Assembly: GCA_017557535.1 (NCBI GenBank) | Contig: JAFYYM010000074.1 | Coordinates: 1 to 64,000, forward strand | From: Bacteroidales bacterium | GTDB lineage: Bacteria; Bacteroidota; Bacteroidia; Bacteroidales; UBA932 | Length of the DNA stretch: 64,000 nucleotides | Direction of reading: 5' to 3' | In this document: piece by piece, positions 9,080-50,536 of the stretch | How positions within the stretch are numbered: the first letter of the stretch is position 1 | Layout: each line of letters begins with the position of its first letter | Translations under genes and position numbers: made by a program | The notes under the pieces: model-generated | What the model was told of the DNA's origin: nothing | Seen by the model: the letters and a program-made list of their open reading frames with translations, nothing else | The model's database searches: none

Positions 9080-9081
9080 CA

Positions 9082-9112: not shown

Positions 9113-9134
9113 TGAATAATAAATATATAACCCT

Positions 9135-9926: not shown

Positions 9927-9951
9927 TTATTACTACGCTAGAATTACTTCA

Positions 9952-17296: not shown

Positions 17297-17365
17297 GCTA
17301 ATAATGAATACTTGTTGTCTCGAAATTTAAACAAACCATTATTTATCATTTTAATATTAACCTTT

Positions 17366-20407: not shown

Positions 20408-20420
20408 AGGAGGCGCAATC

Positions 20421-26653: not shown

Positions 26654-26693
26654 CTTGGGCTATCGCATCATTTTTTTTGCTATATTTAGCAGC

Positions 26694-27989
26694 ATGAAAC
26701 GTTTCTTCTGTGTTTTTGCCGCTATTGCTTCAGCGGTATGCGTCAGCGCTCAAGGTTATGTCACCAAACCTGGCCGGATGGACAGGAGCCGTCTTAATAT
26801 CGGAGTTTATCATTTGCGTTCCTATGCCCGGACGGAGGCTCATGTCAAGGATCTCGCGGACTGCGGAGTGGATTTTGTCATCTGTATGGAAAACGACCGT
26901 CAGACTCTTGATTTGTTCAGCAAGTACGGCGTCGGAGCCATTGTCACTGGCGTGGTGCCGGGATGGTGGGGAGGAGACGGAGATAATGCCGGGAAATTGA
27001 GGGAGACCAATCCGTTGTCGAAATACGAGGAGGCCGCGGCTTCTTTCCAGGATCACCCGGCGATATGGGGAATAGACATAGGTGACGAGCCGTCGGCGTT
27101 GGATTTCCCGTATTACGGGGAGGTGATGAGAAAGGTTGAGGATCTTTTCCCTAACCAGTTCGCTTTCTTGAATCTATACCCGAATTACGCCTCCGTGTCC
27201 CAGAATACGGCTGTCCAGACAAAGAACCAGCTGGGGACTCCGACCTATGAGGAGCATATAAAACAATATTGCGAGAATGTCCCGGCAGACTACCTGTCAT
27301 ACGACTTCTATTACAAGAATGTCGGAGTGGCCAAGGACTATTCCAATCTTCGGGTCGTCTCGGACGCTTGCAGGAGTACAGGCCGTGGCATGTGGGTCAC
27401 GGTCCAGGTCAACAGCTACGATCCCAAGGTCTGGATCACTGAGAATGAGCTTCGTTTCCAGGCTTATTCCGCCCTGGCTTTTGGTGCTGAGAACATAACG
27501 TGGGCTTGCTATACCGCAGGGTGGTGGACCAATCAGGTGCTGGATGAGAAAGGGGTTAAGACCCAGCAGTATGACAAGCTGAAAAAGGTCAATGCGGAGC
27601 TTCACGCCATCGGCGGGGATTATATGAGATATTCTTCAAAATCAACCACTTTCGTTGGTTTTGACGGTACGGATATGTTAGAGAATATCGGGGAGAAGAG
27701 TGTTCAATCATATAATGACGAGGTGTTCTCGGATCTTTCCACCGGCTGTCCTCTGTTAGTGGGGGAGATGGTCCCAAGGAACGGGGGCGTGGGTAAGGCA
27801 TTGTTCCTGTGCGTCGCCGACGATCCTTTCGACAAGGCCCCCAAAAAGCATTCCCTGCGTTTCAAGGCGCCCGGGAAGGAGGTCTCTGTCAAATGCGGAG
27901 GAGAGTATCTTCCGATGAGGAGGGACGCTGACGGGTGGTATGAGTGCGTTGTGTCTTCATGTCAAGGGATATTAATAGAAGCCAAATAA
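26694..27989 (+). CDS. Putative TIM-barrel glycoside hydrolase
   Basis: A 431-residue exported protein (signal peptide MKRFFCVFAAIASAVCVSAQ). The sequence looks like a (beta/alpha)8 barrel of the GH-A kind: RSRLNIGVYHLRSYARTEAH opens the barrel, IWGIDIGDEPSALDF gives a strand-4-type acidic residue (GDEP), and ENITWACYTAGWWTNQVL fits strands 7-8. A small beta domain follows. I cannot assign a GH family. The start at 26694 is chosen because it begins the signal peptide; a TATATTTA box lies just before it. It is the first gene of a seven-gene operon and abuts the GDPD-HAD gene without a gap. Confidence 0.65.
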   Translation: MKRFFCVFAAIASAVCVSAQGYVTKPGRMDRSRLNIGVYHLRSYARTEAHVKDLADCGVDFVICMENDRQTLDLFSKYGVGAIVTGVVPGWWGGDGDNAGKLRETNPLSKYEEAAASFQDHPAIWGIDIGDEPSALDFPYYGEVMRKVEDLFPNQFAFLNLYPNYASVSQNTAVQTKNQLGTPTYEEHIKQYCENVPADYLSYDFYYKNVGVAKDYSNLRVVSDACRSTGRGMWVTVQVNSYDPKVWITENELRFQAYSALAFGAENITWACYTAGWWTNQVLDEKGVKTQQYDKLKKVNAELHAIGGDYMRYSSKSTTFVGFDGTDMLENIGEKSVQSYNDEVFSDLSTGCPLLVGEMVPRNGGVGKALFLCVADDPFDKAPKKHSLRFKAPGKEVSVKCGGEYLPMRRDADGWYECVVSSCQGILIEAK

Positions 27990-29495
27990 ATGAGAAGGTT
28001 TTCAATCGTTTTCGCCGCATGTGTCTTCGCGGTTTTACCTTGCCTGCTTTCAGCTCAGACCAAGGTCATGTCCCACAGGGGATATTATGCCCATCCAGGC
28101 TCGTTTGAGAACACGCTCACAAGTCTGCGGGGCGCCCAGGAACTGGGTGTCGAGGGAGTTGAACTGGATGTTCATCTGACTACGGAGGACTCCCTTGTGA
28201 TCCTCCATGGACCGAAGATTCCCGGATCCAATTATCCGGATGTCCAGAAGCTGGATTTCAAGACCGTCCGCTCCTGTGTCCTTCCAAACGGAGACAAGGT
28301 CCCGACATTGAGGGAATACTTCACCCAGGCCAAGAAAACAACCGCGCTAATGTTGTTCCTGGAGCTGAAGGCTCACCCGACACCCGAAAGGGAAACGACT
28401 CTGGCTGAAAAAGTCGTGGCTCTTTGTGACGAGATGAACATGTATGATCAGGTCACTTTCATATCGTTCAGTGAGCACCTCTGTGATGAGATCTTAAGAC
28501 TACGTCCCGGTACCATGGTCATACCTATCTCCAGCGGCAAGGCGTTTACAACCGAGGAACTGATCAATAGGGGTTACGCTGGGGTATCCTATCATATGGG
28601 CGTGGTGATGAACAGGACCCATTTGCTTGACGAAGCCCATGAGGCGGGGCTCCAGACCGTTCTATGGCCGGTCAACAGCTATGATCTGGCCGATTTCGCG
28701 ATGAGACATCATGTGGATTATGTGAGTTCGGATGAGCCGCAGGCTATGCTGAACCTGATGTCTGCCGTCAGGGAACTTCAGTGGAAGCAGACCAAGAAAC
28801 TTATTGTCTTTGACCTGGATGGAACTCTGACTCAGCACAAGCAGCCCCTCTCGGACGCTAATCGGGCCGTACTGGACACCCTTCGCCAACGTTACGAGAT
28901 CATCATGGCGGGAGGTGGTAACTGCAAGAGGATCTACAATCAGATGGGAGAATATTCCATAACAATCCTCGGCAACTATGGGATGGAAGAAAGCCGGATT
29001 GTGGACGGTCAGTTCAAAATAGTGAGGGAGGAGACCAGCCCTGTAGACCGCAAGTTCTTCGAAAAGAAGACTGCGGAGTTGCGCAAGAAATACGGTTACA
29101 CCGACTTTAAGGGCGACTCTAATGAATATCACCAATCCGGTATGGTCACCTTCGCTTTGTTGGGAACCAAGGCCGAATCGGCTGACAAACTGGTCTTCGA
29201 CCCAGACAAGGTTCGCCGTAGGGAGATGTTCCCCGAGGTCAGTGAGATATTCAAGGATTACTCGGTGTTCATCGGGGGAACGACATCATTCGACATCACG
29301 CCGAAACAGTACAACAAATACGACGCTGTGATGCGCTACGCAGCGGAGAAGGGTTACGTGAAGGATCAGATACTTTTTGTGGGGGATGATTTCACTGATG
29401 GCGGGAACGACAGCCAGATCCGTCTCGGAGGGATGGACTACATAAAGATAGATGACTACACCCGCCTTCCCGAAAAACTCCATTTCCTGTTCTGA
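27990..29495 (+). CDS. Exported glycerophosphodiesterase fused to a HAD phosphatase
   Basis: A 501-residue two-domain protein with a signal peptide ending LLSAQ. Residues about 24-255 are a GDPD domain, with H29-R30, E40-N41, E58/D60 and H73; the last is followed by Gly, not the usual Asp. Such domains cut glycerophosphodiesters to glycerol phosphate plus an alcohol. Residues about 268-501 are a HAD domain of the Cof/phosphomannomutase-like type: D275-L-D277-GTLT, and FVGDDFTDGGND near 461. HAD enzymes of this type are normally cytoplasmic, so the exported fusion is unusual. The two activities in series could free a phosphoglycerol group from a glycan and then dephosphorylate it; this is inference. 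Confidence 0.85.
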   Translation: MRRFSIVFAACVFAVLPCLLSAQTKVMSHRGYYAHPGSFENTLTSLRGAQELGVEGVELDVHLTTEDSLVILHGPKIPGSNYPDVQKLDFKTVRSCVLPNGDKVPTLREYFTQAKKTTALMLFLELKAHPTPERETTLAEKVVALCDEMNMYDQVTFISFSEHLCDEILRLRPGTMVIPISSGKAFTTEELINRGYAGVSYHMGVVMNRTHLLDEAHEAGLQTVLWPVNSYDLADFAMRHHVDYVSSDEPQAMLNLMSAVRELQWKQTKKLIVFDLDGTLTQHKQPLSDANRAVLDTLRQRYEIIMAGGGNCKRIYNQMGEYSITILGNYGMEESRIVDGQFKIVREETSPVDRKFFEKKTAELRKKYGYTDFKGDSNEYHQSGMVTFALLGTKAESADKLVFDPDKVRRREMFPEVSEIFKDYSVFIGGTTSFDITPKQYNKYDAVMRYAAEKGYVKDQILFVGDDFTDGGNDSQIRLGGMDYIKIDDYTRLPEKLHFLF

Positions 29496-29497
29496 TT

Positions 29498-30946
29498 ATG
29501 GAAATAAGCGCCCTTGACTATGTGGTTTTTGCCCTCTTCGTGGCCGGAGTCGTCATCTTCGGATGCAGCTTCTTCCGGAAGAGCAAGTCAGGGGCCTCCG
29601 CATTCACCAGGGCTGATGGAAGCATTCCAGCCTGGGTGGTCGGAATGTCGATATTCGCCACATTCGTCAGTTCCATAAGTTTTCTCGGACTACCTGGGGG
29701 ATCTTATTCCGGCAATTGGAACCAATTGATATTCAGCTTCACAATCCCGATAGCAACCATTCTCGCCGCGAAAGTGTTCATCCCGCTTTACAGGGGAATC
29801 GGGAGTGTGTCCGCCTACCAATTCCTGGAAGACAGATACGGTTATTGGGCAAGGTGTTATGTGGCCATCTGCTATCTGCTTACCCAGGTCTGCCGTGTCG
29901 GCTCCATCCTGCTTTTGCTGGCTATACCGATCAGCGCGATGTTCGGCTGGGACATCAGCGCGATCATCATCGCCACAGGACTTATCACCCTGTTTTTCTC
30001 AGTCCTTGGAGGAATATCAGCCGTGGTCTGGACTGATGCGGTTCAGGGTATTGTGTTGATAGTAGGAGCCTTGGCCTGTGCCGCTATCTTGACATTCGGG
30101 ATGCCGGAAGGTCCTGGACAACTGTTCCGGATCGCGGCCGCTGACCACAAATTCAGTCTCGGAAGCCTTTCCCTGACTCTCCGGGAACCGACAGTCTGGG
30201 TCATCCTTATCTACGGGATGTTCATTAATCTCCAGAACTACGGGATAGACCAGAACTACATCCAGAGGTATATGACCGCCAGTTCGACGAGGGAGGCGGT
30301 GAAAGGCACTATTTTCGGGGGGCTGCTTTATATCCCGGTGTCGTTGGTCTTCGTGTATATCGGAACCGCCTTGTATTCCTACTACACCGCACAGCCAGAA
30401 TTACTTCCGCCCGGGATTAGCGGCGATAAAGTGTTTCCTTATTTCATAGTCCACGGCCTTCCGACCGGCTTGACAGGATTGGTGATAGCCTCGCTCTTCT
30501 CTGCGGGAATCAGCACTGTCTCTACAAGCATAAACTCTTCGGCCACAATTGTTTTCACTGATTTTTACTCCAAACTATCAAAGTCAGACCGTGGTGAAAA
30601 GGATAAACAGATGCGTGTCCTTTACCTTTCTTCCGCCGCCGTGGGAGCCATGGGAATCCTGATTGGTCTGGCGATGCAGAGAATCGACGGGGTGTTGGAC
30701 GCTTGGTGGAAGCTTTCGTCAATATTCAGTGGAGGAATGCTGGGACTCTTCCTGCTGGCCTTGGTCTGCAAGAATCCGGACCGTACCGCGGCGGTTATAG
30801 GCGTGATCCTTGGCCTTTTATTGATTGCCTGGATGAGTCTGCCTGTCTTCAAGAGTCCGATTCACACCTACTTGACAATCGTATTCGGCACCACGACTAT
30901 ATTCCTCGTCGGATTCCTTCTCACAAGTCTTAAGAAAGAAAAATGA
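29498..30946 (+). CDS. Sodium:solute symporter family transporter
   Basis: A 482-residue SSF inner-membrane transporter with about 13 hydrophobic helices. Typical regions are FRKSKSGASAFTRADGSIPAWVVGMS after TM1, SSISFLGLPGGSYSGNW in TM2, and AGISTVSTSINSSATIVFTDF in TM8, where the sodium site lies. It starts 2 nt after the GDPD-HAD gene and 1 nt before a GDPD lipoprotein, so its substrate is likely a product of those phosphodiesterases or of the hydrolase at 26694. It is distinct from the SSF protein at 13254. Confidence 0.85.
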   Translation: MEISALDYVVFALFVAGVVIFGCSFFRKSKSGASAFTRADGSIPAWVVGMSIFATFVSSISFLGLPGGSYSGNWNQLIFSFTIPIATILAAKVFIPLYRGIGSVSAYQFLEDRYGYWARCYVAICYLLTQVCRVGSILLLLAIPISAMFGWDISAIIIATGLITLFFSVLGGISAVVWTDAVQGIVLIVGALACAAILTFGMPEGPGQLFRIAAADHKFSLGSLSLTLREPTVWVILIYGMFINLQNYGIDQNYIQRYMTASSTREAVKGTIFGGLLYIPVSLVFVYIGTALYSYYTAQPELLPPGISGDKVFPYFIVHGLPTGLTGLVIASLFSAGISTVSTSINSSATIVFTDFYSKLSKSDRGEKDKQMRVLYLSSAAVGAMGILIGLAMQRIDGVLDAWWKLSSIFSGGMLGLFLLALVCKNPDRTAAVIGVILGLLLIAWMSLPVFKSPIHTYLTIVFGTTTIFLVGFLLTSLKKEK

Positions 30947-30947
30947 T

Positions 30948-32045
30948 ATGATGAAGAAGTTTCTCACAATCTTAACGTTTGTCTTGACGGCCTTCTCTTG
31001 TGCCAGGACTGAAGCTCCTGATCTTCCAATATCGGTCGCCCACCGTGGCTGCTGGTTGAAGGATGGGGGAGAGTATTACATCAATGAGAACTGCCCCGCC
31101 GGAGTGAGGATGGCTGCTCAGTACGGTTATCCCGCTATTGAGTGCGATGTCAAGTATACCCTCGACAGCGTGATGGTGATAATGCATGACGGCACCATCA
31201 ACCGCACAATGCGCAACGCCTCTGACTATTCAAAGATAGAGGAATCCGTGAAGGTCGCAGAGCACACTTTCGAGGATCTGAGAACCAATTACGTTCTTGA
31301 ATCCTCCGACCCATCCCTAAGGGTTCCGATTCCGACATTGAAGGAAGAGCTTGAGGCTTGCCGGGAATATGGAGTCATGCCCATGCTCCACAGTGCGGTG
31401 GTTGAGTCTTATAAGCTGGCGAGTGAGATTCTTGGAGATGGCTTTATCGCCTTTGACGCCTCTCAAGCCGCCGTGAGTCAGGCCCGCGACTATTCCTCTT
31501 GCCTTATTCTCCTTGATCCGGGCAAGGATGATGCCGCCACGACAATTGAGCGCCTCAAATCGATGGGCGGAAAGTGCGGTATGAGCACAATGAAATACGA
31601 CATGCTTGACGCTGAATATATTAAGGCCGTAAAGGATGCCGGTTTTGATGTGCAAGCCTCGATTTTCCCCGCTCCGCATGAGCAAAGGGCGGTGTCTGAT
31701 GAGGTCACCATCCAACTATCGGATTTCTGGTGGCATCAGACCGAGGGAAGGAAGCCGGTAGCCTCCTTTAAGAGAAAATCCTTGAAACTCCCTGAGGGAC
31801 AGTCTGTGAAGTGGAACCCTGATACACCGGAATTCGCCGCGGTGACTCTTGTGGTTGATTTCACGGGTTCTCTTGAGATAATAATAAATGGAAGGACATA
31901 TAATCTTACCCATGATGAGCCTTGTGATGCGGAGGTCATTGGAGCAAGGTTGTTCAAGGCCACTCCAGATGTGAGCGTGAAAGCTCTTTCCGATTCAAAG
32001 GTTAAATCCCTTAAAGTGGAACTGTACGACTGCGGGAAGGTTTGA
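30948..32045 (+). CDS. Glycerophosphodiester phosphodiesterase lipoprotein
   Basis: A 365-residue lipoprotein (lipobox AFSC). The GDPD domain spans about 28-265, with the complete set of motifs: HRG, NEN, IECDVKYTLD and MHDGTINRTM, so it should be active, unlike the altered HG motif in its neighbour at 27990. Residues 270-365 form a beta-rich C-terminal extension of unknown role. It is probably periplasmic or surface-exposed. It lies between the symporter and a barrel-like protein in the same operon. Two secreted GDPD proteins in one operon suggest that the target polymer carries glycerophosphodiester groups. Confidence 0.82.
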   Translation: MMKKFLTILTFVLTAFSCARTEAPDLPISVAHRGCWLKDGGEYYINENCPAGVRMAAQYGYPAIECDVKYTLDSVMVIMHDGTINRTMRNASDYSKIEESVKVAEHTFEDLRTNYVLESSDPSLRVPIPTLKEELEACREYGVMPMLHSAVVESYKLASEILGDGFIAFDASQAAVSQARDYSSCLILLDPGKDDAATTIERLKSMGGKCGMSTMKYDMLDAEYIKAVKDAGFDVQASIFPAPHEQRAVSDEVTIQLSDFWWHQTEGRKPVASFKRKSLKLPEGQSVKWNPDTPEFAAVTLVVDFTGSLEIIINGRTYNLTHDEPCDAEVIGARLFKATPDVSVKALSDSKVKSLKVELYDCGKV

Positions 32046-32050
32046 ATCCA

Positions 32051-33208
32051 ATGAGGAAAATAGCCGTCATATTGCTGTCCATATTGTTTTTAGCACCTTC
32101 CTTATCCGCTCAGGATGAAGGACTTCGCTTGCCGGATGGTATTGTGAAAAAGGTACTGGGCAGTTTGACCAGACCCAATCCGAAAGTGGACACGGCATAT
32201 ATCCTCAAATCTCCGTTACCTTGGTCCTTCACTTTGGACAATTCCCTGATCGCTACAGGCGCCAGCTTTCATAGTGATATTGACATAACTGAGTTCCAGC
32301 CCAATGACCTGACGTTCAAGGATGGAGTGACCACTCATGCGGTTTTTGAGAACAGCTTGCAGAGACACCTTCATACGAAAATGGGTCTTTCTGTCGGATA
32401 TGGGAGTTTGAGGGTTTCCGGCGGTCTTGAGTTGGGGTCGAAAAACCCGGGTAAGAACTCATTCATCTCTCTTTCCTTGAGGATGCCGACTTTCGGGGGC
32501 ACCATACGGTACATCCGTCTGAAGGAGTATATGGACGGATCCCTATCAGTTGAGGGCACGTCTCCCATAGCCTTCACATCTGAGTATCCCGGCACCATGC
32601 TTACCATCACCGGAGATGTGTACTACCTGTTTAATGGCCTTAGATTCGACTACAATGCCACCCAGGGTTGTGTTGTCGACCAACGCCGCTCTGCAGGGTC
32701 TGTAATGACTTTGGCGAAGTACCTTCAGGGAGATCTGTCGATGGACAAGAGGGATCGGTCCATGTTATCATTCACGAATGGGTTATTCCACTATTCCACC
32801 CAGCAGTTTTCGATTGGACTCGGGTATTCGTATAATTTTGTGCTGTTTCACCGCGATTCGGACGACAGCAGAAACTGGATTGGGTACCGTAATCTCACAT
32901 TGAATATGACAGCCATACCTATGGCATCCCTATATAACCATATTTATTCGCTTGAGGAGATGGAGGATGGATCTGTCAATAAGACAAAGTTTGACGGAAG
33001 TATCGTACCTTCTTTCACGTTGCGTTCGGGGCTGAGTTTCTCGTGGGGAAGATATTCCATTGTAAGTACTGTTGTCTATAATCGGTTTGGATTCAATGGA
33101 ATGCGAACCACAATCTGGACACCGAACCACAGGGTCAAGAATGAGTTTGACACGAAGGCGGACTTTGATGACCTCACCGCCAAGACAAGCCTGGTCGTGA
33201 GGTTTTGA
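32051..33208 (+). CDS. Exported beta-barrel-like protein (DUF4421-like)
   Basis: A 385-residue protein with a signal peptide (MRKIAVILLSILFLAPSLSA, then Q). The rest is alternating beta strands rich in Tyr, Ser and Thr (LSVGYGSLRVSGGLELGSK, FSIGLGYSYNFVLFH, LNMTAIPMASLYNH), ending in LVVRF, a C-terminal aromatic typical of outer-membrane barrels. It resembles DUF4421 proteins, a Bacteroidota family of unknown function; that match is from memory. The ATG at 32051 is preferred to a TTG at 32042. It may form a pore for products of the operon or act as a scaffold. Confidence 0.65.
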   Translation: MRKIAVILLSILFLAPSLSAQDEGLRLPDGIVKKVLGSLTRPNPKVDTAYILKSPLPWSFTLDNSLIATGASFHSDIDITEFQPNDLTFKDGVTTHAVFENSLQRHLHTKMGLSVGYGSLRVSGGLELGSKNPGKNSFISLSLRMPTFGGTIRYIRLKEYMDGSLSVEGTSPIAFTSEYPGTMLTITGDVYYLFNGLRFDYNATQGCVVDQRRSAGSVMTLAKYLQGDLSMDKRDRSMLSFTNGLFHYSTQQFSIGLGYSYNFVLFHRDSDDSRNWIGYRNLTLNMTAIPMASLYNHIYSLEEMEDGSVNKTKFDGSIVPSFTLRSGLSFSWGRYSIVSTVVYNRFGFNGMRTTIWTPNHRVKNEFDTKADFDDLTAKTSLVVRF

Positions 33209-33245
33209 GTGACATGAATATCAATAACTTATAACACTAAATACA

Positions 33246-34556
33246 ATGACACGAAGAGAGTTTATGGAAAAGAGTGCCTTGCTTGGCGCTGGTCTGACGT
33301 TGAGTCCACTTATGGTCCGCATGGCCGCCAAGCCTGTGGGAGCCAATGACAAGATCCACCTTGGCTTGATAGGTTGCCGTGGTCAGGGATTCACCAATTT
33401 GCAGGCATTCCTCCGCAATCCGGAGGTCGACTGTATCGCCTTGTGCGATATCGACACCGGAGTGCTGGAGCAGAGAGCCGCGGATACTGAGAAAATCCAG
33501 GGCAAGAAGGTAAAGCACCTTTACAAGGACTGGAGGAAACTCATTGACAACAAGAATGTGGATGTTGTCATTATCGGCACTCCGGACCATTGGCACTGTC
33601 TCCAGCTAGTGGCTGCCTGTGAGGCCGGGAAAGATGTTTATTGCGAGAAACCGCTTGGCAATAGCATTGAGGAATGTAATATTATGGTCCGGGCGGCTGA
33701 GAAATACAACCGGATCGTCCAGGTGGGGCAGTGGCAGCGTAGCGATCCCCACTGGCAGGATGCGATGGATTTCGTCCATAGCGGCAAGTTGGGAAAGATA
33801 CGTACGGTGCGGGTATTCTCGTATCAGGGCTGGTGCCCTTCAATTCCGGTCAAGCCTGACCAGCCGGCTCCCGAAGGAGTGGATTATGACATGTGGCTTG
33901 GGCCGGCACCTCTGCGTCCCTTCAATCCCAATCGTTTCCACTTCACTTTCAGGTGGTTCTGGGATTATGCGGGTGGACTTATGACTGACTGGGGAGTGCA
34001 TCTCCTGGATTACGCCCTTTATGGAATGAATGTCACCGCCCCTGAGAGCATTATGGCTTCGGGAGGTAAGTTCGGTTATCCTGATGACGCCTGCGAGACT
34101 CCCGACCTTCTCCAGACGGTATATACTTTCAAGGATTTCACTGTCATGTGGGACCACGCCATCGGCATAGATGACGGCGCTTACGGCAGGAACCATGGTC
34201 TCGGTTTCGTAGGCGAGAACGGAACGTTGGTGATTGACCGCGGAGGATGGGAAGTAATTCCCGAAAAGGTGAACGGATCTGAGCGCATGGAAGCGGTCGC
34301 ACTTCAGAAGAGTTATGGAGAGGGAGGCCTTAACCTTCACGTGAAGAACCATTTGGAATGCATCAAGAGCCGCAATCCCAATTGCAATGCGAGCATCCAG
34401 ATTGGCGCCCACATCGCCAAGTTCGCACATCTGGGTAACATAGCATATCGGACAGGCAAGAGGCTTTACTGGGACGGAAAGACATTCCACGATGCTGAGG
34501 CCGATACATATCTCTGCAAAACCTACCGCGCTCCCTGGGAGCTGCCCAAAGTATAG
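33246..34556 (+). CDS. Exported Gfo/Idh/MocA-family oxidoreductase
   Basis: A 436-residue NAD(P)-dependent oxidoreductase. The N-terminus TRREFMEKSALLGAGLTLSP is a twin-arginine-type signal, so it would be exported folded with its cofactor. The Rossmann domain begins IHLGLIGCRGQG near 35; DHWHC and YCEKPLGNS follow, the latter the EKP motif with the catalytic lysine. The C-terminal domain has GGLMTDWGVHLLDYAL with the active-site Asp/His pair. Related exported proteins act with DUF1080 proteins in 3-keto-glycoside breakdown in gut Bacteroides. It follows the barrel-like gene by 37 nt in the plus-strand operon. Substrate unknown. Confidence 0.85.
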   Translation: MTRREFMEKSALLGAGLTLSPLMVRMAAKPVGANDKIHLGLIGCRGQGFTNLQAFLRNPEVDCIALCDIDTGVLEQRAADTEKIQGKKVKHLYKDWRKLIDNKNVDVVIIGTPDHWHCLQLVAACEAGKDVYCEKPLGNSIEECNIMVRAAEKYNRIVQVGQWQRSDPHWQDAMDFVHSGKLGKIRTVRVFSYQGWCPSIPVKPDQPAPEGVDYDMWLGPAPLRPFNPNRFHFTFRWFWDYAGGLMTDWGVHLLDYALYGMNVTAPESIMASGGKFGYPDDACETPDLLQTVYTFKDFTVMWDHAIGIDDGAYGRNHGLGFVGENGTLVIDRGGWEVIPEKVNGSERMEAVALQKSYGEGGLNLHVKNHLECIKSRNPNCNASIQIGAHIAKFAHLGNIAYRTGKRLYWDGKTFHDAEADTYLCKTYRAPWELPKV

Positions 34557-34576
34557 GGACTCTTGAGGCAATTAAC

Positions 34577-37157: not shown

Positions 37158-37169
37158 TGTGCGAGGAAG

Positions 37170-38102: not shown

Positions 38103-38104
38103 CC

Positions 38105-39205: not shown

Positions 39206-39222
39206 GACATGGGATTTTAACT

Positions 39223-40419: not shown

Positions 40420-40438
40420 GCTCTACTGATATGTGGAA

Positions 40439-41200: not shown

Positions 41201-41234
41201 GTCCGATTGGTTTTCTGTATAACAAATATAATAA

Positions 41235-41912: not shown

Positions 41913-41924
41913 AACCAATTATTT

Positions 41925-43307
41925 CTAAAAAATCTTAGGCTCCCATCCCGGTTCGTAATCGCGTCCCCAGTATTTCTGGGCTTCGGGATCTCCGATTATG
42001 AATCCGTTTGTGGGATTAATCTGGATTGAATGTCCAACCCTCATGGCGATATTCGAGAACTGTACCAGCTGGGTGCTCTTGCATGCTTCCTCAAGAGTTG
42101 AATTCAGGGGAGTGCCCTGACGGATGGCATCAAACCAATTCTGGAAATGGAAGGCGTCGAGTTGCTCGGAAGGATTCTGGAGATCCCCGTCCTGGAACTT
42201 GATCTCGCTCACAGCCGTCCTGAGGACCTTTCCCTTGCCGTCGAGCACCTTATATTCGTTTCCTCCGCTGATAATTATTGAGCCATTTTCCCCAAAGAAT
42301 TGTATTCCAGTGGAGTAACCTTCGACCGGGACGGCGTTGCAGCTGCGGCCCTCCCAGGAGCCCGCCCCCTTGTCGCCGAACTGGAATGTGACCATTTGTG
42401 TGTCAAAGGCTTCCCAGTCATCATCGTACCGCCACCTTCCTCCGACGGAGTTGACTTGCGTTGGATAGTCGACACCGAGGCCCCATCTGATGACATCAAC
42501 GAAATGGGTTCCGTTATTCAAGGCTTCCCCAGTCCCCCAATTCCAGAACCAATGCCAATTGTAATGCACAATATTGTCCTTGAAATCATGCACTCTTGGT
42601 GCAGGTCCCTGCCAGAGGTCCCAGTCCAGATTGGATGGTACAGGGACAACCTTGCCTCTGCCGATAGAAGGCCTGTCAGTCGCATACCACGATTTAGCGT
42701 AGTGCACAGCTCCGATAGCTCCATCGTGTATTTCCTGGATGGCTTCCCGGACCCTGGGCCAGGAACGCCTCTGGTTGCCCACAGTAACCACTATCTCAGG
42801 ATGTTTGGCGGCGACGTTGAGGAGCATGTAGTTCTCCGCCGGATTGTGGGAAGTGGGTTTTTCAAGATACACATGCTTGCCGGCTTCGATGGCCATGATG
42901 GCGGCGGGAGCATGCCAGTGGTCCGGCATGGCGATCACAACTCCGTCAATCTCAGGAATTTCCAGGAGTTTCCTGATATCCTTTACTCCGACGGGACTTT
43001 TGCCAGTGATTATCTGGACTTCTTCCTGACATGCGGCCAAGGCGTTCGAATCACAGTCGCAGAGGTGAGTGACCTCGCACAGGGGCATCTTGGAGAAATT
43101 CTTGGCGAGGGCCTTGCCACGGGAATTGACTCCGATTACCGCAAGGCGGATGACGTCGTTAGCGCCTATGACCCGCTTTCCGGCGGGTGCTTCAACCTTT
43201 TTCTTTTTCCTGTCGCCGGCTTCGAGGCTGACTCCCTGGCCAAGACCAAGGGCCACGGATGCCAGAGCGGTGTTCTTGATGAAATCTCTTCTGGTTGTCA
43301 TATTCAT
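41925..43307 (-). CDS. Exported Gfo/Idh/MocA-family oxidoreductase (Tat signal)
   Basis: A 460-residue protein with a twin-arginine signal (TTRRDFIKNTALASVALGLG), so a folded NAD-bound enzyme is exported. The Rossmann domain starts VIRLAVIGVNSRGKALAKNF. DHWHAPAAIMAIEAGKHVYL leads to the EKPTSHNP motif with the catalytic Lys, and GEALNNGTHFVDVIRWGLG carries the active-site His. A basic patch (DRKKKKVEAP) separates the signal from the domain. The ATG at 43307 is chosen over a TTG at 43331. It sits between nagB and a DUF1080 gene, the partner expected in 3-keto-glycoside breakdown. Substrate unknown. Confidence 0.87.
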   Translation of the reverse strand: MNMTTRRDFIKNTALASVALGLGQGVSLEAGDRKKKKVEAPAGKRVIGANDVIRLAVIGVNSRGKALAKNFSKMPLCEVTHLCDCDSNALAACQEEVQIITGKSPVGVKDIRKLLEIPEIDGVVIAMPDHWHAPAAIMAIEAGKHVYLEKPTSHNPAENYMLLNVAAKHPEIVVTVGNQRRSWPRVREAIQEIHDGAIGAVHYAKSWYATDRPSIGRGKVVPVPSNLDWDLWQGPAPRVHDFKDNIVHYNWHWFWNWGTGEALNNGTHFVDVIRWGLGVDYPTQVNSVGGRWRYDDDWEAFDTQMVTFQFGDKGAGSWEGRSCNAVPVEGYSTGIQFFGENGSIIISGGNEYKVLDGKGKVLRTAVSEIKFQDGDLQNPSEQLDAFHFQNWFDAIRQGTPLNSTLEEACKSTQLVQFSNIAMRVGHSIQINPTNGFIIGDPEAQKYWGRDYEPGWEPKIF

Positions 43308-43317
43308 TGTCTTTTGA

Positions 43318-44085
43318 TTAATCCAATACAAAGCGGCCGCTGTCCCGGTCGAGATACAAAGTGGCGCTTTCGTGGCGGCGTAGGATTGACGCCGGACATA
43401 CTTCTGAAATGGGGCCTTTAAGCATCGCTCTGGCGGCTTCGGCCTTGGTTTTCGCCGGGACGACGCAGAACAGGTGGTCAGCCCCGAAAAGAACCGGGCA
43501 GGTCAGTGTGAGGGCATATTCCGGGACTTCCTCCAGGGTGCTGAAACATCCGTCATGAACCTGCTGAGTCCTGCATTTAAGGTCAAGGTCAACCTCTTTG
43601 ATGCGGAGAGGGTCGTTGAAATCAGCCACATGGGGATCATTGAAGGCGATATGGCCATTTTCTCCTATTCCCATGAACACTATGTCTATGTGCCGTTCCG
43701 ACAGTATCTTGTCATATCTGGCTACCGCTTCTTCCTTAGGAAGTTGGGAGCCTATGTAAAAGACTTCCTTGAAAGGGACCTTTTCGAATATTGCCCGCTT
43801 GAGGAAGTTGCCGAAGCCCTGGGGGGCGTTTTCCGGCAATCCCACATATTCATCCATGTGAAGGGCGGAAACCCGTCCCCAGTCAATTCCTCCGGCCTTT
43901 GAGAGGGCTGCCAGGAATTCATTCTGCGAAGGGGCGGCAGCGAACACAACGTTAACTTCTTCTTTCCTGGAGAGGATATTCCTAAGGCAGGTGGCCGCTT
44001 CGCTGGCGGCCGCCTCTCCCATAGACTCCCTGCTGTCGAAGACTTTTACAGATAGCCTGTCGACCTTGAAATTCTTTATCAGCAT
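43318..44085 (-). CDS. nagB: Glucosamine-6-phosphate deaminase
   Basis: A 255-residue cytoplasmic enzyme that turns GlcN-6-phosphate into fructose-6-phosphate and ammonia, the step after NagA. Signatures are ALHMDEYVGLPENAPQGFG (active-site Asp and lid), the catalytic GIGENGHIAFNDP near 150 and the C-terminal VPAKTKAEAARAMLKGPISE. It overlaps the upstream nagA (44079) by 7 nt, so the two are coupled. The residue after the active-site loop, TQQVHDGCFSTLEEVPEYAL, is in the usual place. With NagA and the MFS transporter it completes GlcNAc use except for a kinase, which is not seen in the window. Confidence 0.92.
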   Translation of the reverse strand: MLIKNFKVDRLSVKVFDSRESMGEAAASEAATCLRNILSRKEEVNVVFAAAPSQNEFLAALSKAGGIDWGRVSALHMDEYVGLPENAPQGFGNFLKRAIFEKVPFKEVFYIGSQLPKEEAVARYDKILSERHIDIVFMGIGENGHIAFNDPHVADFNDPLRIKEVDLDLKCRTQQVHDGCFSTLEEVPEYALTLTCPVLFGADHLFCVVPAKTKAEAARAMLKGPISEVCPASILRRHESATLYLDRDSGRFVLD

Positions 44086-45260
44086 TTGTGGATAGTTTTT
44101 CCTTTGATGATTGTTCTCTTGATATTTATGCCTTCGTCGAAGATGACGATGTCCGCGTCTTTTCCGCTCTCGAGGCTTCCTTTGCGGTCCTGGATGCCCA
44201 TGAACCTGGCGGGATTAGCTGAAGCCATCTGAACGGATTGCTCCAGGGTACATCCGCCGTCACGGATCAGGGTGCGAACCAGCCTGTCCGTAGTAGCGAC
44301 GCTGCCCGCAAAAGCACTCCTGTCCATAAGTTTCGCCACACCGTCTTCCACGATCACGTCTTGTCCGGTCTCAAGGTCTCCGAGCTTGTAGATTCCGTCC
44401 GGCATTCCGGCAGCCCGCATGGAATCCGTGATAAGGGCGATACTGTCTACTCCTCGGATCCTGAGTATCATTCGGAGCAAAGTGGACGGGACGTGTATTC
44501 CGTCTCCAATAATCTCAAGGGATATTCCTTCCTGATAGTAGCCATATTCCAGCGTCCCTGCCACGCGGTAAGCGTTTCGGCGGACGATGGTGCTCATGCA
44601 GGAGAAGAAATGAGTCATGTGCCTGGCTCCTGCCTTGAAGGCAGCGTCACACTCGTCAAACGTGGCATTGGTGTGACCAATCGAGGCCAATACGCCCCTG
44701 CGGGAAAGTTCGGCGGCGAAAGCTGGCGCTCCTTCAAGTTCCGGTGAGAAACTCCAGCGGGCTATGTCCGGGCAACGGTCCAGGATGTCGCGGTATTCTT
44801 CCGGACGGGGATTCCGTAGATAACGTGAATCCTGGGCTCCCGCCTGCTCGGGGGAAAAATAAGGTCCTTCGAGATGAATCCCTCCGAATTGGGCGCCTTC
44901 TGCGTTTGCTTTGCGGGCGTCTCGATACACTTCGAAGGAACGGAACAACACCTCATTGCCGCAAGTCAACGTGGTAGGATAAAGGAGTGTGGTTCCGTGA
45001 ATGGCGTGCATGCGGGCCGCTGTGAGATAGGCCTCCACCGTGCCGTCCATGAAGTCGGCTCCTCCAGCTCCATGGGTGTGGATATCGATGAATCCTGGGG
45101 AAACATAACATCCTGAGGCGTCGATGACCTCGTCAGCGTCTGAAGGCGCTTCGTCGGCCAGGCCTAGAATGATACCGTCCTTGAATAACAGCACCTTCCG
45201 GCATTCTCCGCCCGGAGTGATAATTTTTCCTCCGGTTATGGCTGTCTTACCTTCTTTCAT
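44079..45260 (-). CDS. nagA: N-acetylhexosamine-6-phosphate deacetylase (copy 2)
   Basis: A 393-residue amidohydrolase of the NagA family. Motifs are GFIDIHTHGAGGADFMDG near 56-73, the metal Glu in GIHLEGPYFSPEQAG, HMTHFFSCMSTIV and the catalytic Asp in ALITDSMRAAG. The second-His motif reads HFFSCMS where classical NagA has YNAM-like residues, so the substrate may differ (for example GalNAc-6-phosphate); that is inference. It overlaps nagB by 7 nt and the upstream MFS gene by 4 nt. Copy 1 of the same operon is at 35997. The gene symbol is used in the family sense. Confidence 0.87.
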   Translation of the reverse strand: MKEGKTAITGGKIITPGGECRKVLLFKDGIILGLADEAPSDADEVIDASGCYVSPGFIDIHTHGAGGADFMDGTVEAYLTAARMHAIHGTTLLYPTTLTCGNEVLFRSFEVYRDARKANAEGAQFGGIHLEGPYFSPEQAGAQDSRYLRNPRPEEYRDILDRCPDIARWSFSPELEGAPAFAAELSRRGVLASIGHTNATFDECDAAFKAGARHMTHFFSCMSTIVRRNAYRVAGTLEYGYYQEGISLEIIGDGIHVPSTLLRMILRIRGVDSIALITDSMRAAGMPDGIYKLGDLETGQDVIVEDGVAKLMDRSAFAGSVATTDRLVRTLIRDGGCTLEQSVQMASANPARFMGIQDRKGSLESGKDADIVIFDEGINIKRTIIKGKTIHKC

Positions 45261-46522
45261 ATCGTGTCTTTTCGGATTTTATGGCCGTAAACCGCATAGA
45301 ATATCATGTAGACGAAGCAAGGAATAAGGAGCCAATAGGCAGCATGTTCTCCAAGGCGGTCGGCCTCAAGTCCGTATAGAAGGGACATGATGGCGTTGCC
45401 GCAAAGAGCCATCACTAACAGCGAAGACCCAAGATTGGTCCATCGTCCCAGTCCTTTGATGGCCAAAGGCCAAATGCCTGCGTATATCAAGGAATTAGGA
45501 ATTCCCAGCAACACGAGGAACCAGATGGATGCCTTTGGCGGAAAAGCCAGGACCATAATTGACAGTACCAGACCTGCGACCGTGCATATAAGCAGGGCGG
45601 TTTGCTGGCTGAGATATTTGGGTATGGTGATAATCCCTATCAAGTAGCCTACAAGGATACAACCCAGGGTGTAGGAAGGGAATAGCTTCGCGGTGTCCAG
45701 GTCCATGCCAAGACTTTGGGCGTAGCTGATTATTGTGCTGATTGTGATCTGCTGGGAGCCGACATGGGCAAAGAGGGCCAGAACTCCAAGGATTAGGTAT
45801 GGATATGCGAATATGGATTTCCTGTCAGTTCCCTCCGATGATGAGAGATTATCCCGTCCAGGATTGATGTCCGGCAGCGCGGAATAGCGGAATACGAAAG
45901 CGAACAGAACCAGCAGTATAGCAAGGACAATATAAGGCGGGATCACACCTCGGACAAGTTCGTCCAATGCGGCTTCTTTTGCCTGTCCTGTCAGGCTGCC
46001 CTGGCCGATCAGGTCCATTGTGGCCTTGTCTTGAGGTCGTATCACCAGTGCGGCGAAAACCAGAGGAGCTATTATTCCCGCGAACTTGTTGCATACTCCC
46101 ATCACACTTATCCGCCTGGCTGCGCTTTCCTCCGGACCAATGATGGTGACGAATGGATTGGCTACTGTCTGGAGAATGGCTAGCGCCGTTCCCATTGTGA
46201 ATAGGGCAAGCAGGAACAGGCCGTATGTCCTGGTCAAGGCGGCCGGCCAGAAGAGAAGAGCTCCCAAAGCGAGGATCAGCAATCCGATGACACCGCCTTT
46301 TTTCAATCCGGTGCGATTCAACAACAGTGCGGCCGGGATTGTCATGACAAGGTATGCGATGTAGAACGCGAAGGTGACCAGATAGCTTTGGAAACCGGTC
46401 TTGAGATCGCAGGCGACCTTGAAATAGGGAACAAGGATTGAATTAACCCATGAAACAAGGCCGAAAATGAAGAACAGGCTCGCCAGCATCACCAGCGAGA
46501 GGATGTACTCCCTTCGTTTCAT
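45257..46522 (-). CDS. MFS sugar transporter (FucP/NagP-like)
   Basis: A 421-residue 12-helix permease of the major facilitator superfamily, of the Bacteroidota FucP/NagP/glucose-galactose type. Features are FFIFGLVSWVNSILVPYFK in helix 1, LVTFAFYIAYLVMTIPAALLLNRTGLKKG across helices 2-3, and LQTVANPFVTIIGPEESAARR before helix 5. It would bring a monosaccharide into the cell by proton symport. Directly coupled (4-nt overlaps) to nagA2 and to the Gfo/Idh gene, it is probably the GlcNAc importer of the operon. The substrate is inferred from context only. Confidence 0.87.
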   Translation of the reverse strand: MKRREYILSLVMLASLFFIFGLVSWVNSILVPYFKVACDLKTGFQSYLVTFAFYIAYLVMTIPAALLLNRTGLKKGGVIGLLILALGALLFWPAALTRTYGLFLLALFTMGTALAILQTVANPFVTIIGPEESAARRISVMGVCNKFAGIIAPLVFAALVIRPQDKATMDLIGQGSLTGQAKEAALDELVRGVIPPYIVLAILLVLFAFVFRYSALPDINPGRDNLSSSEGTDRKSIFAYPYLILGVLALFAHVGSQQITISTIISYAQSLGMDLDTAKLFPSYTLGCILVGYLIGIITIPKYLSQQTALLICTVAGLVLSIMVLAFPPKASIWFLVLLGIPNSLIYAGIWPLAIKGLGRWTNLGSSLLVMALCGNAIMSLLYGLEADRLGEHAAYWLLIPCFVYMIFYAVYGHKIRKDTI

Positions 46523-47508
46523 TTCCGTATAAGTTTTCGGGCCTCTTTCTCAGCTTTTTCGCGGACCTTGTCCAATGAGACGGTTTTCCCACCCTTCCGC
46601 AGACTGAGATTCGACGCCTCCATGAATGTGAATATCTCCAACGTCTCTTCCTTGTCAACTGGGCATATTCCTGTCTGGAAGAACTTGAGAATCTCGGCAA
46701 GCAAAGGCTGATACCCGGTGTATCCTCCGGTCAGCTTCACGCCGTCTTTTGTGAATACCCTGCCGCCATAGCCGCCGGGCGGATCTATGTTGGCGCGGAA
46801 AGACCCGATCCTTCCGTTGCCCCATATTCCTGTAACCACATCGCCTGAAGGGGTGTGGATGCGGCTGACTTCCTTGCAACCTGTTCCCATGACCGTGTAA
46901 AGCTCCTCTACACCGTGAAGGCCATAATAACCAAAATCAGGATGAGACGGCTCGGGATGATGCGGGGAATAAGTGTCCGCTCCAAGGATTTCTCCGTATT
47001 TCCCATCGCGTATTTCCTGGTTCAGAACGGTGAAACGGACAGCGGAAGAAGAAAAGGTGGTCACTCCGTATTTTTCCGCCAATTTATAAATCGCAATCGC
47101 CTGGGCCAAGGTGGCGCCTATAGGTTTGTCTATGTAAACCTTCTTGCCGGAGCGGAACACTTCCTCAGCCTGTTCCAAGTGGACATTACCATCGTTCGTT
47201 TCCAAAAGCACGCAATCGACCATATTCAGTAACTCAGCGATACTGGAGGTGATTGCCACGCCATATCCCTTGACTTCTTCCGTGTACTTGGGAATCCGGC
47301 TGTATGCCGATTCAATGGTCCTGCTGCCATAAGGATAAGCGGCTACGACCTTGAAATCACCGTTGCCGATCTCGTTGGTATTGATCAGGCGGGTGAAAGC
47401 CGTGGAATGGGAAGTGTCAAGACCGATGATACCAATCTTGATCACTTGCGCTGACATGATCTGGGCGATCAATGTCAAAAGACTGATTATTAGAATTCTT
47501 TTTTTCAT
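46519..47508 (-). CDS. Exported Gfo/Idh/MocA-family oxidoreductase (Sec signal)
   Basis: A 329-residue oxidoreductase with a Sec-type signal peptide (MKKRILIISLLTLIAQIMSA, then Q). It differs from the twin-arginine proteins at 33246 and 41925. The Rossmann domain begins IKIGIIGLDTSHSTAF; the motif normally EKP reads YIDKPIGATLAQA, an Asp for Glu change that keeps the lysine. The C-terminal half has YYGLHGVEELYTVMG, with the His placed as in this branch. It is the second gene of the operon, 4 nt after the sialidase-like gene and overlapping the MFS gene by 4 nt. Whether it is an active dehydrogenase is uncertain. Confidence 0.82.
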   Translation of the reverse strand: MKKRILIISLLTLIAQIMSAQVIKIGIIGLDTSHSTAFTRLINTNEIGNGDFKVVAAYPYGSRTIESAYSRIPKYTEEVKGYGVAITSSIAELLNMVDCVLLETNDGNVHLEQAEEVFRSGKKVYIDKPIGATLAQAIAIYKLAEKYGVTTFSSSAVRFTVLNQEIRDGKYGEILGADTYSPHHPEPSHPDFGYYGLHGVEELYTVMGTGCKEVSRIHTPSGDVVTGIWGNGRIGSFRANIDPPGGYGGRVFTKDGVKLTGGYTGYQPLLAEILKFFQTGICPVDKEETLEIFTFMEASNLSLRKGGKTVSLDKVREKAEKEARKLIRK

Positions 47509-47512
47509 GTGG

Positions 47513-48604
47513 TTATTTAATCATAGACAAGGGTATTTTGGCCAGGTAGACCGAAGCCTTGTCAGTCTCATGCGAAGAATAGTAAGATACCCACAGCTCA
47601 TCTCCCTCGACGACGAATCCGGGATAACTAGTGTCACCTCCTGAGGGAAGGAAACAGATTTCCGTAAAACGGCCTTCAGGAGTTCCTTTCAACAAAAGCG
47701 TCTTATTTGATCCGGGAAGAAAATAGGACCTTGTTCCGGCTATTATGGTCTGATCATCCATGACGATGAAGTCAGGCCCCCCAAGTTGGAGGCCCATCTT
47801 TTTGAATGACCATTCAGTATATGGCGGGTCGCTGACGCCCCAATATCCCTGCAAGTCTCCTGAATCTTCCCTTACCATCATCAGCATCCGCTTATCTGGA
47901 AGGAAACGGACGGTGGTCTCGTTCGGGAAATCGGGTAAATCAAGCATTGTGACATTCTCATAATGAACGCCATCCAGTGTCTTGACCAAGTTGACAGAGG
48001 AACCATGCTCGACTTTTCGGGGGTTCTCATCCAGCAAAGAATATACGACACCATATCCTTCTCCATCTATCCAGTCCACTCTCCAGAGCCAATCCATTCC
48101 GTTTTTGGTCTTGGAATCCAATTCGATAGTAACAGGATCGGAAAACGTTTCACCGTCACTGCTGAAAGAGACTTGTGGGATGCGGCCTTCCAGTTTCTTA
48201 TCCGCCCCGTAAATGGATCCTCCGATGGTTACCATAAGCCTTCCGTCTGGAGTCACAGAAAGCTTAGGGTCACGGAGATCAAATCCGCTTTTTGTCAGAT
48301 GAGCCACGGAGGTCCATGTCTCGCCATCTTCGGAAACCAGGATCCGGACACTTCCTCTGGCCACGCCATCACTGTCAAAAATATGACTTTCCGCCTCCCT
48401 GAAAGAAACATAATACCGGTCTTTGAAGCGGATTATTGATGTGAATGCGCAATGCTTGTCCGAATCCCAGATCTGTTTCACTCGTATCGACACATCATTC
48501 CTCGAACTGGCGCTATCCGGATCCTTTGAGGATTTAGAAGCTTTGCAGCCCGCACATATAATCAGCACGGTAATCAAGGCGAGAATCAATGAATGGCGTT
48601 TCAT
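47513..48604 (-). CDS. Sialidase-like six-bladed propeller lipoprotein
   Basis: A 363-residue lipoprotein (lipobox ICAGC). It has Asp-box-like repeats (VSEDGETWTS near 90, SFSSDGETFSD near 147, TLDGVHYEN near 212) of the sialidase superfamily, and conserved blades DLRDPKLSVTPDGRLMV and TSYPGFVVEGDELWVSYYSS. The FRIP/YRIP motif of true GH33 sialidases is not seen (SIIRFKDRYYVSFRE stands there), so sialic acid release is doubtful; members annotated this way may be other exo-glycosidases. No nanA or nanE is present in the window. It is the first gene of the 12-gene operon, with a TATCTTTG box 25 nt upstream. Confidence 0.72.
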   Translation of the reverse strand: MKRHSLILALITVLIICAGCKASKSSKDPDSASSRNDVSIRVKQIWDSDKHCAFTSIIRFKDRYYVSFREAESHIFDSDGVARGSVRILVSEDGETWTSVAHLTKSGFDLRDPKLSVTPDGRLMVTIGGSIYGADKKLEGRIPQVSFSSDGETFSDPVTIELDSKTKNGMDWLWRVDWIDGEGYGVVYSLLDENPRKVEHGSSVNLVKTLDGVHYENVTMLDLPDFPNETTVRFLPDKRMLMMVREDSGDLQGYWGVSDPPYTEWSFKKMGLQLGGPDFIVMDDQTIIAGTRSYFLPGSNKTLLLKGTPEGRFTEICFLPSGGDTSYPGFVVEGDELWVSYYSSHETDKASVYLAKIPLSMIK

Positions 48605-48628
48605 GGTATTCTTGAGGAGATCTATTCA

Positions 48629-48636
48629 CAAAGATA
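48629..48636 (-). promoter_or_regulatory. Candidate -7 box of the 12-gene amino-sugar operon
   Basis: TATCTTTG on the minus strand fits TAnnTTTG and lies 24 nt before the ATG at 48604. All 12 genes to 35997 have gaps below 35 nt or overlap, so this single promoter could drive them. A -33 TTTG is not visible. Confidence 0.5.
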
Positions 48637-48784
48637 AGGAAAAAGTGGTTTGTAGAATACAGTAACGGTTAATTCTCAATTAATAACGCCACTACCTCCA
48701 GCAAACCCAAGGCACGTTTGTTCTCAAAACCGCCTTGAGTTTGAACTGAAACCGTCGCGAAACCGGAAAGATTAACGCCGGATA

Positions 48785-50389: not shown

Positions 50390-50536
50390 TATGACAATGC
50401 TTTAATATAGACCATTCATATCTTTAATTCCACAAAAATAGGCAAAAACCTTTAAATGGTTATAATAGTAAGCGTGGTTTATTTCGATAAATCACAGTTG
50501 AATTGACAATAGCGCAGCCGCTTTGTGAAGAATTCC

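Follow-up and report, generated by a model that had tools for sequence, protein, structure and literature searches.

Gene content and organization of the locus

We analyzed a 64,000-nucleotide stretch of a Bacteroidales genome (assembly GCA_017557535.1, contig JAFYYM010000074.1, positions 1 to 64,000), hereafter the window, in which two convergent operons contain a gene for a glycerophosphodiesterase (GDPD) fused to a C-terminal phosphatase domain of the HAD-IIB family. The plus-strand run comprises 15 co-directional genes (9135-36022; largest gap 91 bp), the last seven of which (26655-36022) are separated by no more than 37 bp, and the minus-strand run comprises 12 genes (48604-35997; gaps up to 34 bp). 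The two overlap by 26 bp at their 3' ends, and an M49 peptidase gene lies 180 bp upstream of the minus run. An earlier description made from the DNA letters alone (the sequence-only reading) had proposed convergent operons of 7 and 12 genes; the 12 genes, the convergence, the named families, and the tight spacing all hold, and its seven plus-strand genes prove to be the tail of the 15-gene run. Among the genes from 26655 to 48604, the families scoring over Pfam cut-offs are GDPD (twice), SSF, Gfo/Idh (three times), Metallophos, amidohydrolase (twice), GH16, GH20, Glucosamine_iso, MFS, and PF06439/DUF1080. The genes listed in that reading are real, and it missed the SusC/SusD pair and the HAD domain; the minus operon additionally contains a DUF5009/HGSNAT-like gene (39223) and a BNR-like protein (47513). 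Because SusC (17294) and SusD (20394) are co-directional with degradative genes within the 15-gene run, we classify the plus operon as a SusC/SusD-type polysaccharide utilization locus (PUL).

The conservation of each gene was gauged in 22 different genomes whose stretches were chosen by their HAD domain (the relatives), a window gene being counted at ≥60% identity over at least one quarter of its length. As the neighborhood stretches span only 4.5-60 kb, these per-gene counts, given below as fractions of 22, are lower bounds; the M49 peptidase scores 3/22. A core built around GDPD and phosphatase genes recurs among these genomes (GDPD1 19/22, GDPD2 16/22, FAD oxidoreductase 2 13/22, Gfo1 9/22). 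The features, in order of position, are as follows.

8121-9074 (-): AraC-family regulator, divergent from the plus operon; Pfam HTH_18 and AraC_binding; 0/22
9135-17202 (+): GH16a (9135; 1/22), DUF5107-TPR (9895; 0/22), SSF1 (13254; 0/22), FAD oxidoreductase 1 (14923; 0/22)
17294-20407 (+): SusC-like TonB-dependent transporter; Pfam Plug and CarbopepD_reg_2; 5/22
20394-22220 (+): SusD-like protein; PF07980 and PF14322; 5/22
22225-24696 (+): U22225, 823 aa, lipoprotein-like by eye; no Pfam match at 1e-3 and no useful match in a PDB profile search; 8/22
24708-26591 (+): FAD-dependent oxidoreductase 2; PF12831 at 223.1 bits; 13/22
26655-27989 (+): U26655, secreted, TIM-barrel glycosidase-like by eye only; no Pfam match at 1e-3 and no useful match in a PDB profile search; 11/22
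27990-29495 (+): GDPD1-HAD fusion, putatively exported glycerophosphodiesterase with C-terminal phosphatase domain; PF03009, PF08282, PF03332, TIGR01484; PDB 3no3 and 4bnd
28773-29492 (+): HAD-IIB/PMM-like domain, residues 262-501 of GDPD1-HAD; recurs on unrelated enzymes
29498-30946 (+): SSF2 sodium/solute symporter; PF00474 and TIGR00813 over cut-off; 5/22
30948-32045 (+): GDPD2 lipoprotein, third motif altered; PF03009 at 53.3 bits; 16/22
32042-33208 (+): DUF4421 protein; PF14391; 6/22
33246-34556 (+): Gfo1, exported Gfo/Idh protein (signal by eye); PF01408 and PF19051; 9/22
34577-36022 (+): MPP, metallophosphoesterase, lipoprotein-like by eye; PF00149 at 64.6 bits; 4/22
35997-37157 (-): NagA1; TIGR00221 at 275.8 (cut-off 225.65); 2/22
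37170-38102 (-): GH16b; PF00722, ExDxE invariant in 5 sequences; 5/22
38105-39205 (-): GH20-like secreted beta-N-acetylhexosaminidase; PF00728, PDB 8bal at E 8.5e-86; 1/22
39223-40419 (-): DUF5009/HGSNAT-like membrane protein; PF16401 and PF07786; 1/22
40439-41200 (-): U40439, no Pfam match; 7/22
41235-41918 (-): DUF1080/3-keto-disaccharide hydrolase family protein; PF06439 at 152.7 bits; 1/22
41925-47508 (-): amino-sugar module of Gfo2 (41925), NagB-like (43318), NagA2 (44079), NagP-like MFS (45257), and Gfo3 (46519); near the HAD domain in 2/22, as is each gene
47513-48604 (-): BNR-like secreted protein, Asp-box-like by eye; no Pfam match over cut-off, PDB sialidase match only at E 0.79; 1/22

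The GDPD-HAD fusion and its companion GDPD2

GDPD1-HAD combines a signal sequence (recognized by eye), a GDPD domain, and a HAD domain in a single open reading frame (ORF), with all Pfam matches over cut-off: PF03009 at 62.8 bits (cut-off 23.6), PF08282 at 45.9 bits, and PF03332 at 32.4 bits (cut-off 22.4). When aligned to 3no3, GDPD1 retains HRG, ExD, and ELK, which we take to be the catalytic motifs of the GDPD family, and it is accordingly a member of that family. Known secreted GDPDs (3no3, and 7ww4/7wwc, whose chains are named beta-1,3(4)-glucanase) share this domain and its motifs; unlike them, the window protein bears a C-terminal HAD domain, 3no3 having 238 residues and the 7ww4 match covering only residues 7-242 of 480. 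The HAD domain belongs to HAD-IIB by TIGR01484 (47.7 against a cut-off of 41.8) and has motifs I, III, and IV. It shares motif I and GDDxxDGGxD with the alpha-PMM and alpha-PGM enzymes of the same family (4bnd, PMM2) but differs from them in being fused to hydrolases with signal sequences and at two cap positions, where Q stands for the R of NRESM in 4bnd (a position variable in the family) and T for the Q of GQKA. These two residues are presumably important in mutase-type enzymes, and hexose-phosphate binding may differ because of their replacement.

GDPD2 was likewise described as a secreted GDPD by the sequence-only reading. PF03009 is indeed present in both proteins, although the first is the HAD fusion and the second departs from the family motifs. 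With PF03009 at 53.3 bits (cut-off 23.6), GDPD2 keeps HRG, ExD, and HD, but its third motif reads MLHS in all eight aligned copies where GDPD1 and 3no3 have ELK (a correspondence drawn by eye), so that it lacks the full three-motif set. A GDPD2 homologue in another genome (G998) is also without the third motif, and the activity of GDPD2 is uncertain given this substitution. Its retention in 16 of the 22 relatives despite the lost motif possibly reflects a changed chemistry.

A nearly single-copy HAD domain on unrelated hydrolases

Searches with the HAD domain at E 1e-25 recovered it in 31 of 398 genomes of the family and 52 of 330 of the genus, together 61 genomes; in an order-level set of 393 genomes, few of them from the genus, a search at E 1e-40 found it in the own genome only. 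We observed a single match in 59 of the 61 genomes, with one copy split into two matches in G368 and two equal-score matches in G892. In 36 genomes the domain is fused to a hydrolase or an unassigned protein: GDPD in 17, plus one diverged GDPD-HAD (G894) whose GDPD is 28% identical to the main ones; nucleoside hydrolase in nine (one partial, one diverged); GH29 in four; U26655 in three; and GH78 and GH2 in one each. It stands alone after a signal or lipoprotein start in seven genomes and alone without a signal in 16, and two copies at contig ends are unclear; signals and some start codons in this survey were judged by eye. In the examples scanned, Pfam confirms the nucleoside hydrolase, GH29, GH78, GH2, and diverged GDPD partners. 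The GH2 fusion (L174:8035-10674, minus strand), a single ORF in which a signal-like start is followed by HAD and then by GH2, is the sole case with HAD at the N-terminal end. It is evolutionarily unusual for a phosphatase domain so consistently single-copy to be joined to hydrolases that are unrelated to one another.

Motifs and phylogeny were examined in 58 of the 61 sequences, leaving out the split copy of G368 and the short ones of G803 and G976. Motifs I and III are present in all 58, and the strict motif IV, GDDxxDGGxD, in 55, the remaining three having D changed to E. The tree requires 13 changes among nine partner labels (minimum 8). From its well-supported branches it follows that the GDPD label and the nucleoside-hydrolase label each changed two or more times, although the second members, G894 and G864 (whose nucleoside hydrolase is 41% identical to the main ones), are long branches of unsure placement. 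U26655-HAD falls in two places inside a clade of 17 GDPD-HAD copies, of which supported branches force only one. The three genomes with this fusion no longer have the GDPD1 domain, indicating that HAD is kept without it; in the window, U26655 directly abuts GDPD-HAD on the upstream side (0 bp between them), and removal of the GDPD part would by itself yield U26655-HAD. The tree was rooted at its midpoint and leaves the direction of change unspecified. We infer a module that relocates while being kept at nearly one copy per genome: in some cases it stands unfused next to glycerol-phosphate genes, and in others it forms part of exported hydrolases in several loci.

A separate scan of genome contigs for GDPD-HAD gave 21 loci, all in Bacteroidales or Bacteroidia, and the hosts named for them are ruminants: water buffalo, goat, roe deer, water deer, yak, and reindeer. 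A full-length match to the window fusion is rare: of 199 genomes in the family sample, G129 alone has one besides the own genome.

Gene contexts linking the HAD domain to glycerol-phosphate genes

Contexts of the HAD domain were read from stretches of 3-42 kb, taking as neighbors genes on the same strand that are adjacent or one gene away. Among the 16 unfused, signal-less copies, seven neighbor a G1PDH-like gene, seven a GlpT/PgtP/UhpC-like gene, and ten either of the two. The most explicit case is G894 (L169:8665-17228, plus strand), where GDPD-HAD, GlpA (784 against a cut-off of 425), a partial GlpB (160.7 against 174), GlpC (563 against 279.9), a G1PDH-like gene, a GlpT-like gene, and a HAD-IIA-like gene (by eye) form one overlapping run. 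In G998, a GDPD2 homologue (60% identical), GH78, a GlpT-like gene, and HAD lie together, while in G252 the domain is found together with genes for L-rhamnose isomerase and an MFS protein, and the opposite strand carries a PfkB-type gene. Diverged GDPD-HAD genes in G211 and G213 follow a gene of 885-893 aa that in G211 is a metallophosphoesterase, and four of the seven nucleoside hydrolase-HAD neighborhoods viewed contain SusC or SusD homologues.

Proposed mechanism and competing explanations

The model that we favor, tentatively and at somewhat less than even likelihood as a whole, is a SusC/SusD locus with an exported phosphodiesterase-phosphatase. GDPD1 would cut a glycerophosphodiester outside the cytoplasm, giving glycerol phosphate and a free hydroxyl, and the attached HAD domain would remove the phosphate from the released glycerol phosphate; neutral glycerol and the dephosphorylated glycan or headgroup would then be importable. 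An accessory role is probable for MPP and GDPD2. What the data show directly is which genes, fusions, motifs, and neighborhoods are present; the substrates, the sequence of reactions, and the place of action in the cell are inferred from them. The minus operon joins core genes (GH16b, U40439, and sometimes NagA1) with GH20 and a separable amino-sugar module; this module (NagP-like, NagA2, NagB-like, Gfo2, Gfo3, and in some genomes DUF1080), together with GH20, would take exposed N-acetyl-amino-sugars. Microbial surfaces bear phosphorylated glycans as well as glycans decorated with phosphoglycerol, and a phosphoglycerol-decorated amino-sugar glycan is a plausible substrate. The phosphoglycerol-type substrate of the sequence-only reading gains from the relatives, which tie the HAD domain to glycerol-phosphate genes (the G894 run and the ten unfused copies, largely two clades), while its link to an amino-sugar polymer is plausible only. 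A natural glycan carrying GlcNAc and glycerol phosphate is known in the streptococcal group A carbohydrate (PMC12282279); it is speculative that this bacterium meets such a glycan on rumen organisms.

Several observations weigh against this model. The assignment of glycerol phosphate is drawn from gene context in relatives, since the G1PDH-like (67%) and GlpT-like (58%) genes of the own genome lie elsewhere than beside its HAD copy. Most of the ten supporting copies belong to two clades (G961, G339, G378, G878, and G880; G854, G252, G895, and G998, with G803 outside the tree), six of the 16 unfused copies have neither neighbor, and such neighbors accompany none of the seven lone copies with a signal and one of the 36 fused copies (G894). 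The names G1PDH-like and GlpT-like are at family level only because scores lie under NCBIfam cut-offs: two G1PDH-like genes reach 152 and 159 against 413, and three GlpT-like transporters 273-305 against 408 for the PgtP subfamily. An exported phosphatase in G894 would also destroy the glycerol 3-phosphate used by GlpABC, and exported or cytosolic location was judged by eye throughout. GDPD1 is present in 19 of the 22 relatives, a count partly due to construction because most loci were found through GDPD-HAD. Finally, among solved structures the HAD domain is closest to phosphohexomutases (4bnd, PMM), which makes hexose phosphates or mutase activity possible; the GH29, GH78, GH2, and nucleoside hydrolase partners are not obviously about glycerol phosphate, and together with the PMM-like ancestry they argue for a broader sugar-phosphate role.

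The likelihoods we attach to this model and to its four competitors are not mutually exclusive. Foremost among the competitors, although unlikely, is phospholipid-headgroup scavenging, in which GDPD1-HAD and GDPD2 would act on deacylated phospholipids (glycerophospho-ethanolamine, -choline, or -inositol) and no decorated glycan is involved, the sugar genes being mere neighbors. The GlpABC run of G894 fits this, as do G211 and G213, where GDPD-HAD stands beside a metallophosphoesterase-type gene and no other window gene was recognized within 18.1 and 28.6 kb; however, the HAD-bearing stretch also holds U22225 in 8 of the 22 relatives and SusC, SusD, and GH16b in five each.

Rather unlikely is a general role, in which the HAD tail carried by exported hydrolases would be a phosphatase for sugar or nucleotide phosphates, or a relative of phosphohexomutases, finishing phosphorylated carbohydrates instead of glycerol phosphate. 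PMM/alpha-PGM as nearest solved structures, the nucleoside hydrolase, GH29, GH78, and GH2 partners, and the unfused copy adjoining L-rhamnose isomerase all point this way. PafA offers a likeness in role, likened here by description and not by sequence, in removing phosphate so that the carbon part can be eaten: according to PMC8812569, Flavobacterium johnsoniae cannot grow on phosphorylated carbohydrates without this phosphatase, and the strain was unable to use phosphoglycerol as a carbon source. Against this stand the two cap replacements relative to 4bnd (R to Q and Q to T), with which hexose-phosphate binding may differ, and the contexts of the unfused copies, which favor glycerol-phosphate genes.

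A wider form of the glycerol-phosphate model, which we consider doubtful, would have rumen Bacteroidales eat phosphoglycerol-decorated microbial glycans, such as the rhamnose/GlcNAc wall polysaccharides of Gram-positive cocci, through a relocating glycerophosphatase domain carried on the exported enzymes of each locus. GDPD-HAD would remove and dephosphorylate glycerol phosphate, GH20, NagP, NagA, and NagB would take GlcNAc, and in single relatives the rhamnose and glycerol phosphate would be taken by GH78 (G376, G998), RhaA (G252), and GlpT-like genes that lie next to this HAD domain. The own genome has nine rhamnosidase matches, none of them within the window.

Recombination around the conserved core

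The genes inserted near the core differ among relatives, with a GH10-esterase type in four genomes, GH3 in four, BNR in three, DHDPS in three, GH5 in two, and GH2 in one (types were assigned by clusters, with one member of each scanned). Within the window, 5807-7009 (plus strand) is a second U22225 copy with an internal deletion that joins residues 1-361 to 783-823, and the segment 5627-6894 shares 96% DNA identity with the G204 copy; this deleted copy is likely the scar of recombination between locus versions. The block 8121-17202, from AraC to FAD oxidoreductase 1, was likely acquired, placing new genes before SusC. DNA of G207 matches the window in pieces from 31021 to 50491, and the absent pieces cover NagA1 and DUF1080. 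The varied inserts and the deleted copy are what would be expected of a recombination hotspot, where neighbors pile up in one chromosomal slot without shared function; this explanation is improbable, and it is countered by the 16 of the 22 relatives that keep GDPD2, and the 13 that keep FAD oxidoreductase 2, in the vicinity of the HAD domain.

Two specialized roles suggested by these inserts were set aside. BNR (G208, G210, G212), DHDPS (G203, G210, G212), and a second SSF gene (G210, G212) near the same core raised the possibility of a sialic-acid locus, which we rejected for the window, as no DHDPS was found among the scanned ORFs and the BNR-like protein matches no sialidase family. Likewise, the GH10-esterase type gene that would speak for an arabinoxylan role in four relatives is not among the window ORFs scanned.

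The amino-sugar module and the minus operon

Both amidohydrolases score as NagA by TIGR00221 (275.8 for NagA1 and 268.2 for NagA2, against 225.65). The NagB-like protein has PF01182 over cut-off and lies under the TIGR00502 equivalog cut-off (109.5 against 236.9), and the NagP-like protein lies under NF046060 (333.7 against 625) and over the gluP subfamily (242.3 against 202.55). The minus operon thus shares two NagA proteins, a NagB-like, and a NagP-like protein with the NagP-NagA-NagB pathway of GlcNAc use, but no kinase was recognized in it, and the latter two proteins fall short of their equivalogs. Of the three Gfo/Idh proteins that the sequence-only reading took to be exported, all belong to the family; the twin-arginine signal of Gfo2 is over cut-off by TIGR01409, whereas those of Gfo1 (twin-arginine) and Gfo3 (Sec-type) were seen by eye only. 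DUF1080 and Gfo/Idh proteins also recur in the 3-keto-glycoside pathway of the BT2157/BT2158 type (PMC9007349), although Gfo1 and Gfo2 lie far under the glycoside 3-dehydrogenase cut-off of NF058561 (162 and 140.2 against 750). Gfo1 shows a weak likeness to IolG (86.5 bits against 355), and no search aimed at inositol genes was made.

Gfo3 was matched in 17 of 398 family genomes, the own included; the other 16 provided 17 neighborhoods of 7-20 kb in which its contexts were viewed. NagP, NagA2, and a SusC or SusD homologue were each found in seven of them; ten lack NagP, so Gfo3 is not tied to amino sugars everywhere. NagA2 co-occurs with a SusC or SusD homologue and without a GDPD homologue in five, and none of the 17 contains a homologue of GDPD1, GDPD2, or HAD at E 1e-8. 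The two modules lie side by side, as in the window, in G205 and G207. In G200 (= G259), the amino-sugar module is on a contig with its own SusD, and in G200, G204 (= G229), and G334 the Gfo3-module genes and GDPD-HAD are on separate contigs, which in draft assemblies is no proof of distance. In one further locus (L092:4837-14040, minus strand), NagP-NagA-NagB-Gfo3 precedes genes for a Gfo/Idh protein with Oxidoreduct_C, a member of the ApbE family, and two more Gfo/Idh proteins, which puts ApbE next to oxidoreductases within an amino-sugar locus.

Because the amino-sugar module keeps other contexts without GDPD and is near the HAD domain in 2 of the 22 relatives, the composite of the window is two separable modules side by side, of which the GDPD/phosphatase module is the informative one. 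The gene set is thus mostly not kept together in relatives, an outcome that the sequence-only reading had itself named as counting against it. The least probable explanation is that reading's single conserved system, in which hydrolysis and 3-keto oxidation would together break down an amino-sugar polymer that is teichoic-like or decorated with phosphoglycerol: all its named genes are present and tightly spaced, both modules recur together in G205 and G207, and glycans with glycerol phosphate on GlcNAc exist (the streptococcal example above), but the Gfo2/NagB-like/NagA2/NagP/Gfo3 block and NagA1 recur in 2 of the 22 relatives, DUF1080 and GH20 in one each, and contigs differ in G200, G204, and G334.

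Relation to known systems

PULs, GDPD, HAD-IIB, NagA, and DUF1080 are all known kinds. The locus has SusC, SusD, glycosidases, and an AraC regulator in common with Bacteroidota PULs, but here phosphoesterase genes are among the best-kept members (in loci gathered through GDPD-HAD). None of the titles and abstract beginnings that our searches of open-licence PubMed Central literature returned describes a GDPD-HAD fusion, a HAD phosphatase tail across exported hydrolases, or a Bacteroidota locus built around removing phosphate or phosphoglycerol groups. The pattern hints that molecules bearing phosphate groups are consumed in a manner not yet described, and the roaming HAD domain could mark phosphate-decorated nutrients in rumen genomes. 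Outside the two operons, the window also encodes a second DUF1080 protein (56638-57447, minus strand) and a SASA-family esterase-like protein (57534-58979, plus strand).

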